Shown here: one piece after another, positions 23,559-32,996 of the stretch
Numbering within the stretch: the first letter of the stretch is position 1
Layout: each line of letters opens with the position of its first letter
From: Streptomyces asiaticus
GTDB lineage: Bacteria > Actinomycetota > Actinomycetes > Streptomycetales > Streptomycetaceae
DNA length: 64,000 nt
NCBI RefSeq assembly: GCF_018138715.1
Contig: NZ_JAGSHX010000006.1
Coordinates: 4,774,001-4,838,000 of the forward strand
Direction: 5' to 3'
Notes under the pieces: generated by a model
What the model saw: only the letters and a program-made list of their open reading frames with translations
Database searches by the model: none
What the model was told of the DNA's origin: nothing
Translations under genes and position numbers: made by a program

Positions 23559-25775
23559 TCAACGTACGTCGACCGCCGGTCGTCCGTCGGCCGCCGGTCG
23601 TCCGTCGGCCGTTCGGGACGAGGTCACCGTGGCCCGTCCCGCCGCCCGCGAGGGCCACCAACTCGCCTCACCGAGCAGCAGCATCGCCGACGGAAGGACC
23701 ATGATCCGGACGATGAAGGCGTCGAGCAGCACGGCCGCCGCGAGGACGAAGCCGATCTGCTTCATCTCGATGATGTGGAGGAAGACGAAGCTCACGAAGA
23801 CCGTCGTCATCACCACCGCCGCACTCGTCACCACACTCGCCGACCTCCGGATGCCGTCCAGCACCGCCTGCCTCGTGGACGCGCCCGCGAGTACGGCCTC
23901 CCTGATCCGGCTCACCACGAACACCTGGTAGTCCATCGAGAGCCCGAAGAGGATCACGAAGAGGAACAGTGGTACCCGCGATCCGATCGAACCCGTGGAG
24001 TGGAAGTCCAGCGGCCCCTCGGCCCAGGTCCCCTGGAAGACCAGGACGAGCAGACCGAGCGCGGCCGCCGCGGACAGCACATTCAGCAGGACCCCGATCA
24101 GCGCCAGCACCAGCGAGCGGAACGCGTACGCGGTCATCGCGAAGGTCACCAGCAGCAACGCCCCGAGGACCAGCGGGAGTTTGCCGTTCTGGTGCGCGGG
24201 ATAGTCGGCGTACCGGGCGACGTCGCCACTCACCCCGGACTCCGCCCCGTCGACCCGGCCGACGGTCGCGGGGAGGTAGTCCTCGCGCAGGTGGTCCAGG
24301 GAGTCGTACGCCTGGTCGGAGTTGCCCAGGTACGGCACCTTCAGCTCGAGCACACTGACCCGGTGGTCGGCGGAGGTCCGCACCCGCGAGGCGCCGCTGA
24401 ACAGCGGGTCGGCGTCGGCGCGCCGGGCCAGCTCCCGCAGCGCGCCGCCGACCTCGCCGGATCGCGACGCGTCGGCACGTACGACGACCTGGTGGGTGAC
24501 CCGCTGGTCCGGGAACGCCGCGTTGAGCCGGTCGTACACCCGCATGGCGGCGATGTCGCGGGAGTGGGTGTCCCGGCTCATCTCCGTGATCTTCAACTCG
24601 GCCAACGGGACGGCGAGCGCGAGCAGGGCGAGAACGGATACGCACAGGGTCGCCAAGGGGTGCCGGCTCGCGGGTCGCAGCAGGGCGGCCCATACGCGGC
24701 CACCGCCGTCGCCCCGCGTCCGGCGCGCGGGCCTTCCCCGCTCGGCACGCCGCCGTGCCCTGCGCTCCTCCCGTTCTCCGAGCTTGACGAGCATCGCGGG
24801 CAGCGCCGTCAGCGAGCTGGCCACCGCGACCAGGACGACCACGATCGTGCCGGTGGCCAGCGAGGAGAAGATGACGTCGGAGGCGAGGTACAGCGTCGCG
24901 GTGGACGCCACGACCGCGAGCCCGGAGATCACGACGGCCCGGCCCGAGGTCGCCGAGGCCAGGTCCACCAGCGCCTCGGAGCTCAGTCGGCCGCCCGAGC
25001 GGGCGCGCTCCTCGCGTTCCCGCTTGAGGTAGAAGAGCGTGTAGTCGACGCCGACCGCGAGGCCGATCATCAGGATGACGTTCGTGCCGACCCCCGCGTC
25101 GGGCGAAACGTGTGAGGCCACCATCGAGAGCCCGATGGCCGCCGCGATCGACGACAGCGCGAGCAGCAGCGGCACCCCCGCCATGGTCACGGATCCGAAC
25201 ACGACCAGCAGGGTGATCAGGGTGATGGGAAGCGTGATCTTCTCGGAGAGCGCCAGGTCGTCGCCGCGCTGCTGGTCGACCCCCTTGCTGATGGACGGGC
25301 TCCCGGTCTCCTCCAGCCGCAGCCCCGGATACGCCTTCCTCACGGCGTCCGTCTGCCCGACCAGCGCGTCGACCTTGTCCTTCGCGTCGCGCTCCTCGCC
25401 CTTCAGCGCCACCTCGACCATGAGGATCCGGCGGTCCCCGGACAGCAGCGGGTCGGCGACGCCCGCGACCTCGGGCAGCCGCTCCATCCGGGCGGTCAGG
25501 TCCCCGGCGGCGGCCTCGGCCGCGTCCCGGTCGAGGCCGCCCGACCGGGCGGAGATCAGCACCTGCTCGGTGGCCCGGCGCGCCAGACCCCCCTCGGCGG
25601 CCATCGCCTCGGCCCGTCCCGCCTCGCCGACCCGGTAGTCGGCCGTCGTCGCGCTGTGGGTCCCGACGGCGCTGCCGACCCCCAGGCACAGCGCCACGAA
25701 CACCAGCCAGCCGACGATGGCCCGCCAGGGGTGCCGAGCGCTCCAGCGCGCCATGCGCACAGTGAGTGATGTCAT
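23559..25775 (-). CDS. MMPL family (RND-type) transporter
   Basis: 738 residues. A MMPL/RND plan with two halves, each with one N-terminal helix, a periplasmic loop and a five-helix bundle. First half: WRAIVGWLVFVALCLGVGSAVG, then ITLPITLITLLVVFGSVTMAG and VILMIGLAVGVDYTLFYLKR. Second half: LATLCVSVLALLALAVPLAEL, then LFLFVILFGLSMDYQVFVVSRIRE. The two intramembrane DY(T/Q)LF-type motifs are present. It exports lipids or hydrophobic drugs by proton motive force. First gene of an operon with the sensor kinase and regulator. The C-terminus carries ADGRPA repeats from an 18-bp tandem repeat. Confidence 0.92.
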   Translation of the reverse strand: MTSLTVRMARWSARHPWRAIVGWLVFVALCLGVGSAVGTHSATTADYRVGEAGRAEAMAAEGGLARRATEQVLISARSGGLDRDAAEAAAGDLTARMERLPEVAGVADPLLSGDRRILMVEVALKGEERDAKDKVDALVGQTDAVRKAYPGLRLEETGSPSISKGVDQQRGDDLALSEKITLPITLITLLVVFGSVTMAGVPLLLALSSIAAAIGLSMVASHVSPDAGVGTNVILMIGLAVGVDYTLFYLKREREERARSGGRLSSEALVDLASATSGRAVVISGLAVVASTATLYLASDVIFSSLATGTIVVVLVAVASSLTALPAMLVKLGEREERRARRRAERGRPARRTRGDGGGRVWAALLRPASRHPLATLCVSVLALLALAVPLAELKITEMSRDTHSRDIAAMRVYDRLNAAFPDQRVTHQVVVRADASRSGEVGGALRELARRADADPLFSGASRVRTSADHRVSVLELKVPYLGNSDQAYDSLDHLREDYLPATVGRVDGAESGVSGDVARYADYPAHQNGKLPLVLGALLLVTFAMTAYAFRSLVLALIGVLLNVLSAAAALGLLVLVFQGTWAEGPLDFHSTGSIGSRVPLFLFVILFGLSMDYQVFVVSRIREAVLAGASTRQAVLDGIRRSASVVTSAAVVMTTVFVSFVFLHIIEMKQIGFVLAAAVLLDAFIVRIMVLPSAMLLLGEASWWPSRAAGRATVTSSRTADGRPAADGRPAVDVR

Positions 25776-27745: not shown

Positions 27746-28080
27746 CGTCGCCGGTGCTGCTCGCCGAACTCGACCACGCAGCCACCCGGGAACTGGGCCG
27801 CGAGGCCGCGGTGAGCGCGATCGACGACATCCGGGGCTGGACGCGCCGCGGCCGGGTATCCGTACCCGAGATCACCGAAGCGCACCTCGGCAGAGCCCAG
27901 ACCGTCCGATCCCGCTACCCGGCGCTCGACCTCGATCTCACCGACGTGGTGAACGTCGCGCTGGCGGCCGACTACGACACCGACGCGATCCTCACCCTGG
28001 ACCGCCGGGACTTCCGCGCCGTACGCCCCCTCGGCCATCACAAGGCCTTCCGCGTCCTGCCCGGCGATCTGCCCGTCTGA
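27746..28080 (+). pseudogene. 5'-truncated VapC-like PIN toxin, copy of 31258-31701
   Basis: From LLAELDHAATRELGREAAVS to the stop, the translation matches the intact toxin at 31258 almost residue for residue (e.g. YDTDAILTLDRRDFRAVRPL in both). The first about 35 residues, including the catalytic IADTS aspartate, are gone, and there is no antitoxin. The 5' junction is a GCCGC repeat at about 27715-27750. This is a dead duplicate of the cassette-2 toxin. Confidence 0.7.
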
Positions 28081-28104
28081 ACCCCGCGGCGTCGGAGGCG
28101 CCTA

Positions 28105-28190
28105 CGGCGACTGGTGGCGGCTGGCGTGGTGCCGCGTAGTGCCGCCTCGGCGACGGTGGTGTCGATCGCGTATTCGTGCCTGTGGGAGAT
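28105..28190 (-). pseudogene. Fragment of the other VapC-like toxin (matches 30058-30150)
   Basis: About 85 bp resembling the minus-strand toxin gene of cassette 1, with small indels (shared GCCTCGGCGACGGTGG, and GCGTATT.GTGCC). Only the segment around the third catalytic aspartate remains. It lies immediately right of the other toxin remnant. Confidence 0.5.
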
Positions 28191-29589: not shown

Positions 29590-29743
29590 TGCGAGTCTTG
29601 GCCAAGGAGAGGTCCACGTCGTCACTGACTCGGTTGACGATGTGGTGGGCCTGGACGGCGTAGCCGCCCGCGAGGGCGTATCCGTAGTCCTTGGCGAGCG
29701 CGTCCAGGCCGATGCGGATCAGTTGGCGGTGCAGCTCGTCCAC
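29590..29743 (-). pseudogene. AbiEii-type nucleotidyltransferase toxin remnant (N-terminus)
   Basis: GTG 29743 starts VDELHRQLIRIGLDALAKDY, then GYALAGGYAVQAHHIVNRVS and DDVDLSLA. This is the N-terminal GG..(A)xxxH....S.DxD nucleotidyltransferase motif of the AbiEii/AbiGii toxin family. The frame then runs into non-homologous sequence, so about 80 percent of the protein is missing. The partner antitoxin is absent. It lies directly left of the first tRNA-Gly repeat. Confidence 0.6.
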
Positions 29744-29787
29744 TAGGCGGCCGCTGTCGTGGCGCCCGGTTCGCGGAGCTCGGGGAA

Positions 29788-29827
29788 GCGGGTGACGGGA
29801 ATCGAACCCGCGCTCTGAGCTTGGGAA
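29788..29827. repeat. tRNA-Gly 3'-end direct repeat A (att-like)
   Basis: 40 bp identical to 32927-32966, the T-arm, variable region and anticodon 3' side of the intact tRNA-Gly(CCC). It starts GCGGGTGACGGG and ends GAGCTTGGGAA. Beyond that it diverges into TCACGGGGTGATC instead of the rest of the tRNA. This is a displaced tRNA end as left by site-specific integration. Confidence 0.85.
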
Positions 29828-29935
29828 TCACGGGGTGATCGACACTGGTCATGCCGCTGACCAGCATGAACGAGTGCTGGCTGCGGGCTGGTGTGCCCGC
29901 CGCAGCACCCGTCATTGACCGCTGTCACCGCTCTA

Positions 29936-29955
29936 TCTGGTGCGGATCTGGTGCG
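29936..29955. repeat. Arm-type-like repeats TCTGGTGCG x2 (cassette 1)
   Basis: TCTGGTGCG at 29936-29944 and 29947-29955. The same pair at the same phase occurs at 32044-32063, at an equivalent distance from repeat C. Tyrosine integrase arm sites have this form. Confidence 0.55.
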
Positions 29956-29995
29956 TCGTCCTCCACGCATCTGTCTGTCCTGAGGGGCCCGCGCC

Positions 29996-30397
29996 TCATA
30001 GGGCGATCAGTCGCACGCGGTCATTGCAGAGCTTGGCCATGTCGTCGGTGTCGGAGGTGAGTATGGCGACTGGGGACGGCTGGCGTAGTGCTGCCTCGGC
30101 GACGGTGGCGTCGAGCGCGTATTTGTGCCCGTGCAGTCCTGCTGATTTGAGTAGTTCGGCGGCAGCCTTAGCGGCCTGTTCGGTGACGGGTTCGACCTTG
30201 ACGCGGGAGAGGGCCCAGTTCAGGTGTGGGAGGTTCACTCGCGAGTGGCTGACTTCGACGATGGTGTTGGCGCTGATGACGAGATCGGCTCCCATCCCGT
30301 GGAACACCTGGAACATCGCGAGAACTTTGCGGTCCTGGGCAACCCAGGCGGACAGTCCCTGGGAGTCCAGGACGACGGTCTCAAGATGTGTGCTCAC
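29996..30397 (-). CDS. VapC-like PIN-domain toxin (cassette 1)
   Basis: 133-residue PIN ribonuclease, starting GTG 30397. The four acidic active-site positions are present: Asp11 (VVLDSQGLS), Glu48 (ISANTIVEVSH), Asp96 (HKYALDATVAEAAL) and Asp116/119 (ILTSDTDDM). Such toxins cleave tRNA or rRNA and are neutralised by the antitoxin made just before. The start overlaps the antitoxin stop as GTGA (30394-30397). The long in-frame reading beyond 30397 crosses a tRNA fragment and is spurious. Confidence 0.82.
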   Translation of the reverse strand: MSTHLETVVLDSQGLSAWVAQDRKVLAMFQVFHGMGADLVISANTIVEVSHSRVNLPHLNWALSRVKVEPVTEQAAKAAAELLKSAGLHGHKYALDATVAEAALRQPSPVAILTSDTDDMAKLCNDRVRLIAL

Positions 30398-30642
30398 GCG
30401 GCGTCCGTGCGGCCGGCACGGTCGGCGGCGCCGAAGATCTTGGCGCGGGCTTCGGTGAGCTCTTCGTCTGTGAAGGCACCTTGTTCCTCCTGATGGCGCC
30501 GCAGATCGTCGCCGAGGAGTTGGTGGCGGATCTGGCGGGCCACCGCTTCCGCCACGTAGCCGGACACGTTGTCCGTGAGCTTCCTCAGCTCGGCGACCTG
30601 CTCGGTGGGCAGGGTGACGGTGATGCGTGTTGTGGCGGACAT
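30394..30642 (-). CDS. RHH antitoxin for the cassette-1 PIN toxin
   Basis: 82 residues: MSATTRITVTLPTEQVAELRKL begins with the beta strand and helix of a ribbon-helix-helix domain (about 5-45, including ITVTLPTEQ and VSGYVAEAVARQIRHQLL). A charged C-terminal tail (EEQGAFTDEELTEARAKIFG) would bind the toxin. ATG 30642 lies six bases after a TATGCT -10 box (30654-30649), so the mRNA may be leaderless. A GCATACT-CC-AGTATGC palindrome lies over that promoter, consistent with autoregulation. Confidence 0.78.
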   Translation of the reverse strand: MSATTRITVTLPTEQVAELRKLTDNVSGYVAEAVARQIRHQLLGDDLRRHQEEQGAFTDEELTEARAKIFGAADRAGRTDAA

Positions 30643-30649
30643 GAGTCGA

Positions 30650-30665
30650 GCATACTCCAGTATGC
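30650..30665. promoter_or_regulatory. Palindromic operator over the cassette-1 antitoxin promoter
   Basis: GCATACT / AGTATGC arms around CC, perfect 7-bp arms. It overlaps the -10 TATGCT and ends 8 bp from the antitoxin ATG, the place where RHH antitoxins bind. Confidence 0.65.
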
Positions 30666-30749
30666 GTTTGATCGAAGTCCGGCTGCGAACGGCTGTCCCC
30701 GTGAAAACCAAACAAGGACCAGGTCGCTGACCTGTGCCTTCGTCGTGGA

Positions 30750-30789
30750 GCGGGTGACGGGAATCGAACCCGCGCTCTGAGCTTGGGAA
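30750..30789. repeat. tRNA-Gly 3'-end direct repeat B (att-like)
   Basis: Same 40 bp as repeats A, C and the tRNA gene. Left flank (AAACAAGG ... GCCTTCGTCGTGGA, including a degenerate hairpin) matches the left flank of repeat C, so the repeat really includes the region downstream of the tRNA. Right flank TCACAGAGTGAT keeps the TCAC-N3-GTGA inverted repeat. Confidence 0.85.
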
Positions 30790-31000
30790 TCACAGAGTGA
30801 TGGGCGCGGAACCGCCTCTCACCTGCTGGAACGGGTGCAGTGCCGAGTCCCGTCGGGCTGGCCTCACACCGTGATTGACCCTGGTTCGCCGGTCCAGCGG
30901 GCACACATCGGGCACGGCCGAGACGGAGCGACCAGCGTGTTACGCCGAGGGGATCGAACGCTGGCATACACCAATTTGGTACATGTGTTACTCTAGGTAC

Positions 31001-31261
31001 ATGTCCATGAAGCGCACCAATGTCTATGCCGACCCGGAAGACCTCGCCATCATCAAGGAGGCCGCCAAGCGTCGCGGTATCAGTGAGGCCGAGATCATCC
31101 GGCAGGGCATCCATCTTGCCGCCATGGCCAATCGCGTGTGGGACGAGCCGTTGTTCTCCCGCACTTTCCCCGGCCCTGGGCGCACTCTTACCAAGGGCGA
31201 GGTGCGTGATGTCGTTGCTGACGCTGCCCAGCGCGAAACCGGTTCAGGAACTGCTGCGTGA
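31001..31261 (+). CDS. RHH antitoxin for the cassette-2 PIN toxin
   Basis: 86 residues, MSMKRTNVYADPEDLAIIKE followed by AAKRRGISEAEIIRQGIHLA: a CopG/VapB-like ribbon-helix-helix (about 1-45), then a toxin-binding tail (FPGPGRTLTKGEVRDVVADA). ATG 31001 lies six bases after TACTCT (30989-30994), so a leaderless transcript is likely; ATG 31007 is the alternative. GGTACATGT occurs at 30978 and 30997, flanking the -10, a possible operator. The stop overlaps the toxin start. Confidence 0.8.
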   Translation: MSMKRTNVYADPEDLAIIKEAAKRRGISEAEIIRQGIHLAAMANRVWDEPLFSRTFPGPGRTLTKGEVRDVVADAAQRETGSGTAA

Positions 31262-31701
31262 TCGTCGTCATCGCTGACACCTCCGGCCTGTTGGCAGCGC
31301 TCGATTCCACGCACCCGGAGCATGCCGCGGCGCAGGAGGCCATCATGGCTGCCGGGCTGCTCGTCATGTCGCCATTGCTGCTTGCTGAGCTCGACCACGT
31401 AGCCACCCGCGAACTGGGCCGCGAGGCCGTGGTGAGCGCGATCGACGACATCCGGGGCTGGATGCGCCGCGGCCGGGTATCCGTACCGGAGATTACTGAG
31501 GGCCACCTCGGCATCGCCCAGACCGTACGATCCCGCTACCTGGCGCTCGACCTGGATCTCACCGACGTGGTGAACGTCGCCCTGGCGGCCGACTACGACA
31601 CCGACGCGATCCTCACCCTGGATCGCCGAGACTTCCGCGCTGTACGCCCCCTCGGCCATCACAAGGCCTTCCGCGTCCTGCCTGACGATCTACCCCTCTG
31701 A
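31258..31701 (+). CDS. VapC-like PIN-domain toxin (cassette 2)
   Basis: 147 residues starting GTG 31258, which overlaps the antitoxin TGA as GTGA. PIN active-site acids: Asp7 (VVIADTSGLL), Glu44 (LLLAELDH), Asp103 (DLTDVVNVALA) and Asp122/125 (ILTLDRRDF). This is the intact version of the remnant at 27746-28080. Unrelated in detail to the cassette-1 toxin, so the two cassettes carry different VapC types. Confidence 0.85.
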   Translation: MIVVIADTSGLLAALDSTHPEHAAAQEAIMAAGLLVMSPLLLAELDHVATRELGREAVVSAIDDIRGWMRRGRVSVPEITEGHLGIAQTVRSRYLALDLDLTDVVNVALAADYDTDAILTLDRRDFRAVRPLGHHKAFRVLPDDLPL

Positions 31702-31895
31702 AGCCCCACACGCGCTGCGGAGGGCCTCGAAGGGCAGTCCGCCCTCTCCCGTGCGGAGTTGTCGAGCCGTGCAGGGTCGGTGTGTCCACTCGGTTGGAGA
31801 GGCGAGGCCTTCTGGCGCGGATCTGGTGTAAGACGCTTAGCGCGGTCTAGACAACAAACAAGGCCCGGGTCTGTGACCTGGGCCTTCGTCGTGGA

Positions 31896-31935
31896 GCGGG
31901 TGACGGGAATCGAACCCGCGCTCTGAGCTTGGGAA
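31896..31935. repeat. tRNA-Gly 3'-end direct repeat C (att-like)
   Basis: Same 40 bp. Right flank TCACGTGGTGATCAC, then GCTGACCAGCA, CATTGACCGCTGT and TATCTGGTGCG, all shared with the right flank of repeat A at matching distances. So cassettes 1 and 3 carry the same type of left end. Confidence 0.85.
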
Positions 31936-32070
31936 TCACGTGGTGATCACGGCTGAGTTACCTGCTGACCAGCACAAACGAGGGCTGACGGCAAGCCGCC
32001 GACCTTTCGCAGTTCCCGGCATTGACCGCTGTTGACTGCCGTATCTGGTGCGCTTCTGGTGCGGGGGACG

Positions 32071-32334
32071 CTAGCCGAGCCATGTGATGCGGGTGATCAC
32101 AACAAGTTCGAGCCGTTCCAGGGCCATGAACATGAAGAAGCCCCGCCCTCCGAAAATGTCCTGTGTCCGCAGACCTCCGCCGTGCGGGTTTCCGCGTCCG
32201 ACGTCGACGGCGTCGCTGCCCAGGACCGTCAGCTGCTCAGCCAAGCGCTCTACCTCGGCCACGACTTCGTGCGGCAGGCCGCCTACGACATGCTCGGCAT
32301 CGGGGTCGTAGTCCCAGGTCCAGTTATCGCTCAC
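32071..32334 (-). CDS. Small RelE/ParE-like partner of DUF6247 protein
   Basis: 87 residues from GTG 32334 (VSDNWTWDYDPDAEHVVGGL). It has the layout of a RelE/ParE-type toxin: an N-terminal strand, two helices (LPHEVVAEVERLAEQLTVLG), then strands (GGGLRTQDIFGGRGFFMFMA, LERLELVVITRITWLG). Classical catalytic residues cannot be assigned with confidence. Its start overlaps the DUF6247 stop as GTGA, as in the two VapBC modules. Toxin role is inferred from size, coupling and context; it could be a regulator instead. Confidence 0.55.
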   Translation of the reverse strand: MSDNWTWDYDPDAEHVVGGLPHEVVAEVERLAEQLTVLGSDAVDVGRGNPHGGGLRTQDIFGGRGFFMFMALERLELVVITRITWLG

Positions 32335-32684
32335 GCGGAGATCTCGCGCTGCGCCACGTCTGTGATCTGTCGCATCTCGGCGAGTGCGGAGTGCAGGGCC
32401 TCGCGGTCCGTTGCTTCTTCCGCTACGGCCTCCAGTTCACGCAGGCGGGCCGCTCGTGCGGGGTAGCGCTCGATGGCAACGAATTCTCCCCACCACAGCA
32501 GGAAGGTGCGCAGTGGAGCGATAGTGCTCTGAGTGGCGGCTTGTTCGACCGCGCGGTCGAGGTGTTCGGCGAAGGAAGGCAACTGGGCGGGGGCGATCTG
32601 GGCGACCGCTGCGCGGAGCGCTGCCGGAGTGAGCGCCGGCATGGGGATCAGGGGCCCGTCGGGGGCGGAGGGCTGCTCGGTCAT
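32331..32684 (-). CDS. DUF6247 family protein (putative antitoxin)
   Basis: 117 residues, mostly helical: LIPMPALTPAALRAAVAQIA, PAQLPSFAEHLDRAVEQAAT, TIAPLRTFLLWWGEFVAIER, then YPARAARLRELEAVAEEATD. Matches the uncharacterised DUF6247 pattern of streptomycetes as I remember it. CAGGAGACGTTCCG before ATG 32684 is a good ribosome site. It is first in the pair, and its stop overlaps the partner's start. Antitoxin role is inferred from this order only. Confidence 0.6.
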   Translation of the reverse strand: MTEQPSAPDGPLIPMPALTPAALRAAVAQIAPAQLPSFAEHLDRAVEQAATQSTIAPLRTFLLWWGEFVAIERYPARAARLRELEAVAEEATDREALHSALAEMRQITDVAQREISA

Positions 32685-32886
32685 CGGAACGTCTCCTGGG
32701 CGGCGGTCTGAGTGATCATCGTGAGCATGGCCGTTGTTGCGGACGCTGGGCCGAGCCTACGCCCGCGCCTCGTCCGCCACACAACACCCGACGCGTCTCG
32801 ATCGCTTTGGCCCAAGTGTGATCGCGCTGTGCTGGGGCTTGGTGCGTCGCCGGGAGTCGCCGGAGACGCCAGCGGTCCAGGGCAAC

Positions 32887-32919
32887 AAAGAAGCCCCGGG
32901 CCGCTGGCCTGGGGCTTTG
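32887..32919 (-). terminator. Terminator hairpin of tRNA-Gly
   Basis: AAGCCCC / GGGGCTT arms with an inner GGCC-GCT-GGCC stem, ending a few bases 3' of the tRNA on its strand. Comparable hairpins stand at the same place next to repeats B and C. Confidence 0.65.
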
Positions 32920-32922
32920 TGC

Positions 32923-32996
32923 TGGAGCGGGTGACGGGAATCGAACCCGCGCTCTGAGCTTGGGAAGCTCATGTTCTACCATTAAACTACACCCGC
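32923..32996 (-). tRNA. tRNA-Gly (anticodon CCC)
   Basis: 74 bases including an encoded CCA. The acceptor stem GCGGGTG / CACCCGC is perfect, discriminator T. The anticodon stem TGAGC / GCTCA encloses loop TTCCCAA, giving anticodon CCC. The T-arm GCGGG-TTCGATT-CCCGT is standard. Reads GGG codons. The 3' half is the target repeated at 29788, 30750 and 31896, so it is the attachment site of the neighbouring cassettes. Confidence 0.95.

Follow-up and report, generated by a model that had tools for sequence, protein, structure and literature searches.

How does a chromosome come to carry, beside a single tRNA gene, a row of short blocks that are each bounded by a copy of the tRNA end and each hold one toxin-antitoxin (TA)-like gene pair? 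This question is raised by a 3.2-kb stretch at the tRNA-Gly(CCC) gene of Streptomyces asiaticus, at positions 29,788 to 32,996 of the window analysed here (64,000 nucleotides, positions 4,774,001 to 4,838,000 of contig NZ_JAGSHX010000006.1). The structure is real and widespread, and it is a variant of the kind known as cis-mobilizable elements (CIMEs). We consider it likely that the three blocks, hereafter units 1 to 3, are minimal CIMEs that derive from actinomycete integrative and conjugative elements (AICEs) and spread unit by unit. Genomes and loci used for comparison are denoted by G and L numbers.

Core-bounded units and their parent elements

A preliminary description of this DNA had reported that the last 40 bp of the tRNA-Gly(CCC) gene recur identically at 29788, 30750 and 31896, dividing the stretch into blocks of 962, 1146 and 1031 bp. 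Repeats and spacings were confirmed, with a fourth copy at 32927 lying within the tRNA gene, and so was the single two-gene module in each block, with GTGA overlaps at 30394, 31258 and 32331. The whole 11.88-Mb genome contains four exact copies of this 40-bp core and no others at up to three mismatches (backward-read control, 0); exact copies that occur nowhere else in the genome rule out chance repeats. The repeat itself proved to be more than 40 bp: the core is exact, but the junctions also share a hairpin tail on its left and an arm of ~145 bp on its right. The tail, a hairpin plus CCA, is common to units with unrelated cargo, and the arm consists of a TGACCTGC-like block, a TTGACCG-like block and a direct repeat of 6-bp boxes ~11 nt apart. 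Read on the tRNA strand, the window tails fold and T-rich DNA comes next; a terminator for the tRNA is thus probably supplied by each unit. The three bounded units also stand as described, but they are not the entire array, since older AbiEii- and VapC-type pieces lie to the left of 29788. That position is therefore not the original array end, and the AbiEii, unit-2-type vapC and unit-1-type vapC pieces indicate that up to three older units decayed there. The AbiEii relatives of G149 and G371 lie in units, and the G371 gene matches PF08843.

Larger elements point to where such units may come from. Elements of ~10-16 kb with the same ends adjoin the intact tRNA gene in G347, G386, G036, G390 and G388, and a scan of ten of their proteins gave matches to the Phage_integrase, RepSA, SpdB, FtsK/SpoIIIE, GntR-UTRA and HTH_17 (Xis-like) families, not all of them present in one element. 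By this predicted gene content, the larger elements at tRNA-Gly(CCC) are pSAM2-like AICEs. In the six integrase genes examined, ~58-68 nt separate the stop codon from the core, and the arm pair falls within the final codons, so that one and the same sequence serves as right att arm and encodes the protein C-terminus. These 3' ends were inspected in loci L055, L056, L057, L058, L060 and L105. The arm-type repeat varies by integrase group, being GGTGCG in G347 and G388, GGGCACG in G386, G036 and G371, and GGCACG in G390.

Remnants of such integrases are graded across the units. Among 78 units with both cores within one locus, a definition that leaves the AICEs of G388 and G371 outside the first count, 4 hold a full integrase gene, 19 hold pieces and 55 hold none; 13 of the pieces end 58-70 nt from the core, as whole genes do, and 6 end farther in. 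The absence of an integrase from the window array, as first described, holds for whole genes but not for fragments, because unit 2 ends in an apparent remnant of ~25 codons (31763-31837). This piece matched over 25 aa at 52% (tblastn, E=3.3) and was accepted on its distance from the core, 58 nt as in whole genes; by eye, its DNA resembles the integrase ends of G388 and G347. Graded integrase remnants, together with ends shared with the larger elements, support an origin of the units as AICE deletion derivatives, i.e. as CIMEs. The case for deletion is made for the units as a group (19 of 78 with integrase pieces); within the window it is direct only for unit 2, and weak there. The flanks of the window units are of attL/attR type, with core, left arm and right tail as in the larger elements and the right-hand arm pair missing, and the integration and transfer genes have been lost, leaving a remnant only in unit 2. 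A Pfam scan of their open reading frames (ORFs) found no integrase, excisionase, replication or FtsK-like transfer gene, and the units are thus not AICEs themselves.

Integrase relatives are common in the genus and were found at E<=1e-40 in 200 of 392 genomes. The S. asiaticus genome has no relative at that threshold (5 of 49 first-look candidates scored); at E<=1e-10 it yields 18 tyrosine-recombinase matches, all of them outside the array, and may hold a more distant helper integrase. In genomes with both core copies and integrase matches of >=60% identity, the two lie on the same contig within 36 kb in 19 of 22 cases and on different contigs in 3, among the matches listed. Known phages were considered as helpers and rejected: 251 phage records matched, all less than 60% identical (<=38% among the 8 matches listed). 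Plasmid carriage of the array was also rejected, with 4 records whose matches cover 6% of the query.

Recurrence between species and routes of movement

The core is found well beyond S. asiaticus. A 29-nt core pattern with up to two mismatches matched in 147 of the 392 genomes of the genus (backward-read control, 0 throughout) and matched two or more times in roughly 90 (counted by hand), with 9 matches on one contig of G202; the core match is the tRNA gene itself in some genomes, and in others (core with CGAACTCG) the tRNA gene is too mismatched to be listed. An exact 44-nt pattern returned 48 named stretches, all from Streptomyces, Streptantibioticus or Actinacidiphila. It had been proposed that short blocks with other TA pairs, if they are true cassettes, should recur elsewhere in varying number and order, and this was found. 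Units were read from 38 genomes, with the overlapping duplicate loci L036, L039, L101 and L106 omitted; the script yielded nothing for one unit (at the start of L070), leaving 77 for the arm and stem counts, of which 25 are 1.5 kb or shorter. Seven loci fall outside the unit set. By eye, all seven single-core loci that were read show a hairpin-like tail beside the tRNA, and are therefore not clean empty sites; G355 also has an integrase-end-like piece.

Fifteen unit pairs in 7 families, selected for full-length match, agree from core to core between genomes at 83.5-97.1%. Their neighbours do not: all 28 neighbour comparisons gave 46.3-52.4%, against a baseline of 49.4 (standard deviation 1.8) for unrelated DNA, where the right neighbour of tRNA-adjacent units is chromosome and two pairs have no left comparison. 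Sizes are conserved within families (938/952/955, 962/963, 1111/1118/1129 and 1345/1349/1352). The order of units varies as well. Unit-3-type DNA adjoins the tRNA in G000 and G164, other units come after in G149, G356 and G359, and G069 has unit-1-type next to unit-3-type DNA with no unit 2 between. The mean ratio of nonsynonymous to synonymous substitution (dN/dS) is 0.06-0.13 in five cargo families of 2 to 9 sequences each, including 0.13 over 9 copies of the unit 1 vapC; these sets include some copies from loci without both cores. Judged by cross-species recurrence, conserved sizes and the purifying selection estimated for the cargo, the units are more than debris. The preliminary description had set cassettes against eroded elements, and both are partly true: the origin appears to lie in AICE deletion, and the distribution is that of units recurring one by one from core to core.

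A mechanism can be proposed that accommodates both halves. A pSAM2-like AICE would integrate at the anticodon loop of tRNA-Gly(CCC), and an internal deletion, for which the comparison above argues, would remove the AICE core genes tra, rep, xis and int. The residue would be one cargo module between a left arm and a right tail, with a core at either end. Because the tRNA-side core remains a target, later elements could stack between it and the older units, as the order in relatives suggests. An AICE docked in the tRNA-side core could then be excised and transferred as a composite with the unit, for which the unit would provide the left end (attL side) and the AICE the right end (attR), Int and Xis; after transfer the AICE would depart or decay, leaving the unit beside new neighbours. 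Working TA or defence cargo would favour retention. An AICE beside a unit is seen in G347, G388 and G371. We regard such mobilisation in cis, by accretion with an AICE, as somewhat better than an even prospect. The units of S. asiaticus are probably immobile until a suitable AICE arrives, as their own genome shows no close integrase relative.

The arms bear on this step. A left arm pair (a direct repeat of the integrase type, up to two substitutions) is present in 67 of 77 units (interior control mean 1.84, maximum 6), a right pair less often, in 34, and both in 30. Among units without an integrase remnant the counts are 48 of 54 on the left and 16 of 54 on the right; part of this asymmetry follows by definition, because the right pair sits inside the integrase end. 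The pattern nevertheless matches the demands of accretion, in which the attL side comes from the unit and everything else from the docked AICE.

Excision in trans would differ only in this mobility step, since it shares the AICE-derived origin, and its probability overlaps with that of the reading preferred here: AICE integrase and Xis would cut out each unit singly as a circle that reinserts at the tRNA, much like an integron cassette. Single units of similar size that recur core to core beside new neighbours fit such a route, as do the retained left arms and the 30 units with arm pairs at both ends. Lambda-type excision is expected to need both arms. The low retention of right pairs in units without remnant therefore speaks against it, and the plasmid collection gave only short matches, though 1-kb circles would rarely be expected there. 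Because left arms outlast right arms, accretion in cis fits better than excision alone in trans, which we hold to be rather unlikely.

Shuffling by homologous recombination that depends on RecA, acting between cores, arms and shared cargo and leaving no role for site-specific recombination once the first element has inserted, appears more doubtful still. The 40-bp cores and ~145-bp arms would supply homology, and arms do seem to have been swapped among relatives of unit 3; however, shared-unit ends coincide with cores in the 15 pairs, though the pairs were selected for that, and integrases lie near the arrays in 19 of 22 genomes among the matches listed. Independent erosion, in which full AICEs with TA modules would have decayed separately in each lineage to the part lost last, is very improbable: it would explain the graded integrase remnants and the decay seen in the leftmost units of the window array, and AICE decay is described in PMC9513070, but units that are homologous between species retain both ends and differ little in length, an outcome that separate erosions would not give.

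Several findings weigh against AICE-derived units that spread one by one. The argument is drawn from sequence comparison. Loci were picked for close core spacing, which biases sizes to small units, and the comparison set holds one genome per species. Three of the 19 integrase pieces, the one in window unit 2 among them, were taken on position only (E 0.85-3.4). Integrase relatives of ~70% identity or more occur in genomes without a core match (G012, G084, G122 and G124), so the integrase family is not tied to this core and also serves other cores or sites. Ten of 77 units lack a left arm pair, a stricter left-arm search found it in 53 of 77 (control mean 0.145), 30 of 77 tails contain a perfect stem of >=7 (mean of the interior control 2.85, maximum 6), and the right-arm search was negative in all three window units. 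Unit 1 matches its G371 counterpart at 97.1%, little above the chromosomal flank at 93-94%, and the vapC genes of this closest pair give dN 0.021 and dS 0.041, a ratio of ~0.5 on few changes. Finally, unit 3 has no full-length partner in the unit set. Its relatives in L054, L095 and L037, compared with window 31896-32073, match from ~position 178 and have other left arms, so homologous exchange also shapes units.

Cargo genes and positions of features

The predicted cargo of the window consists of two VapBC-like pairs and one DUF6247 pair by Pfam, as first described, with the unit 1 antitoxin below cut-off (Table 1). Units 1 and 2 have the predicted make-up of VapBC type II TA systems, a PIN toxin and a small DNA-binding antitoxin in an overlapping operon. 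The 87-aa protein of unit 3 may be a toxin; its structure model is uninformative (pLDDT 50.7), and no family was found for it in Pfam or NCBIfam, the latter giving one weak below-cut-off match among the six window proteins. Two of the five PIN matches of the S. asiaticus genome fall inside this 3.2-kb stretch.

Table 1. Positions of repeats, ends, genes and gene remnants at the tRNA-Gly(CCC) array of the window
Feature	Positions	Strand	Remark
tRNA-Gly(CCC), attB gene	32923..32996	-	ARAGORN
Core copy 1, left end of unit 1	29788..29827	+	no CCA/hairpin tail on left; abuts AbiEii-like remnant
Core copy 2, unit 1/unit 2 junction	30750..30789	+	
Core copy 3, unit 2/unit 3 junction	31896..31935	+	
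Core copy 4, inside intact tRNA gene	32927..32966	+	anticodon loop to 3' end
Unit 1 left (P'-type) arm	29828..29960	+	direct repeat 29939-29955
Unit 2 left arm	30790..30920	+	repeat 30899-30916, first half degenerate
Unit 3 left arm	31936..32065	+	direct repeat 32047-32063
Unit 1 right tail, hairpin + CCA	30692..30749	+	fold z -1.36, weak
Unit 2 right tail with hairpin	31838..31895	+	fold z -3.10; resembles AICE post-integrase tail
Unit 3 right tail, terminator-like hairpin 3' of tRNA	32869..32926	+	fold z -2.26
Unit 2 right end, probable remnant of AICE integrase 3' end	31763..31837	+	altered arm pair
Unit 1 VapC-like PIN protein, 133 aa	29996..30397	-	PF01850 E=1.1e-5
Unit 1 VapB/CcdA-like antitoxin, 82 aa	30394..30642	-	PF07362 E=2.8e-4, just under curated cut-off; ORF extendable to 30711
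Unit 2 ribbon-helix-helix antitoxin (RHH_1), 86 aa	31001..31261	+	PF01402 E=2.6e-6
Unit 2 VapC-like PIN protein, 147 aa	31258..31701	+	PF01850 E=9.6e-13
Unit 3 first gene, DUF6247 protein, 117 aa	32331..32684	-	PF19760 E=5.5e-6, exactly at cut-off
Unit 3 second gene, 87 aa	32071..32334	-	no known family; mean dN/dS 0.09
Remnant of AbiEii-type gene	29608..29787	-	93-94% to G149 and G371 genes
Remnant of unit-2-type vapC	27747..28085	+	91% to 31368-31706
Remnant of unit-1-type vapC	28087..28184	+	78% to 30046-30133

Across units the cargo is broader than the window suggests. Among 94 proteins of 50 units of up to 3 kb, Pfam matches comprise 11 PIN, 6 AbiEii, 5 DUF6247, 4 CcdA, 2 Phd/YefM and 2 RHH_1, a count that includes homologous cassettes from several genomes. 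Before the count, the set gained three window genes by hand, the gene picker having missed the first vapC, and lost one longer window ORF together with two tail ORFs. Other matches were to Shedu, PD-Lambda-2, PDC-S27, DUF4365, PF00144 beta-lactamase, zinc dehydrogenase and FAD oxidase, and longer units hold an Rhs protein with a toxin domain, a P-type ATPase, GmrSD and SecY. The Rhs/WXG100-type protein (1598 aa, Ntox27 domain; L044, 14640-19436) lies in a 5.8-kb unit of G202, so units can also carry large polymorphic toxins. The name addiction-module array, offered earlier, is too narrow for Shedu, GmrSD, Rhs, P-type ATPase, SecY, dehydrogenase and PF00144 proteins. Of 34 PIN matches in 8 genomes, core-bounded units contain 6, and another 3 lie no more than 6 kb from an array (coordinates read by eye). 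A second tRNA-Gly gene (TCC) lies in the window at 23946-24034, ~9 kb from the array, and 20-mers sampled from it every 10 nt found no repeats in the window.

Relation to known mobile elements

The arrangement suggests a route by which single TA or defence modules could become exchangeable without a mobility gene of their own, the units possibly forming a reservoir of addiction and defence genes that species share, and it could partly explain why these bacteria have TA genes clustered at a tRNA gene. The pattern of a kept left arm and a lost right arm is a sequence signature that can be searched for at other tRNA sites. In Nonomuraea gerenzanensis (NZ_LT559118.1, 1340000-1366000, L165), a tRNA-Gly-like core is followed by a 10.7-kb element with RepSA and integrase, then by a 1.6-kb unit (a partial PIN_3 match and an HTH_17 protein) and then by an integrase split into two ORFs. 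As its arms differ and its integrase is ~37% identical, this may be a parallel case, and the layout may have arisen in parallel. No description of a tRNA-Gly(CCC) array of shuffled minimal AICE-derived cassettes was found in the literature, covered mostly through non-subscription papers.

Tycheposons are tRNA-anchored and often lack full transfer genes. The units differ from these and from other tRNA-targeting satellites in that the likely helper is a conjugative AICE and not a phage; tycheposons are counted among phage satellites in PMC11389934. CIMEs and the accretion and decay of AICEs are described in PMC9513070, PMC5704250, PMC3218068, PMC7563491, PMC11389934 and PMC8978831 taken together. 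Like the units, CIMEs are deletion derivatives that keep att sites and cargo, lack Int and transfer genes and form tandem stacks. In accretion arrays decay is most advanced in the elements at the greatest distance from the target gene (PMC7563491), and the remnants to the left of 29788 agree with this rule. Streptococcal CIMEs measure 1.2-13 kb and microCIMEs 130-220 bp, and the streptococcal composites described there consist of two or three elements (PMC7563491, PMC5704250). Here, in contrast, the parent is an AICE, units with cargo can be as small as 0.94 kb, one reduced unit may be met in several species with other DNA on either side, and 9 core matches stand on one contig (G202). AICE accretion has been described at tRNA-Arg in Streptomyces (PMC9513070, PMC3218068), and the AICEs of pSAM2 type and the derived DAICEs of these papers share with the present array the parent type, the use of a tRNA site, several elements per site and remnants beside them. 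DAICEs differ in that they keep traB, whereas the window units hold no whole AICE gene.

Integron cassettes and integrase-less cassette clusters, as generally known, resemble the array in their single-module units, single type of site, growth at one end and an integrase located elsewhere. Unlike theirs, the site here combines a tRNA core with arms of lambda type. Against integron integrase models the helper integrases score far below cut-off; no model search for attC itself was made. We tentatively raise the idea, possible although short of even odds, of a conjugation-driven counterpart of the integron: a pool of minimal att-bounded, TA- and defence-rich cassettes that AICE integrases would stack, excise and trade at tRNA-Gly(CCC) between species of Streptomyces and some relatives, in which selection would maintain only the left arm as mobility signal and the array would act as a stockpile anchored at the tRNA.

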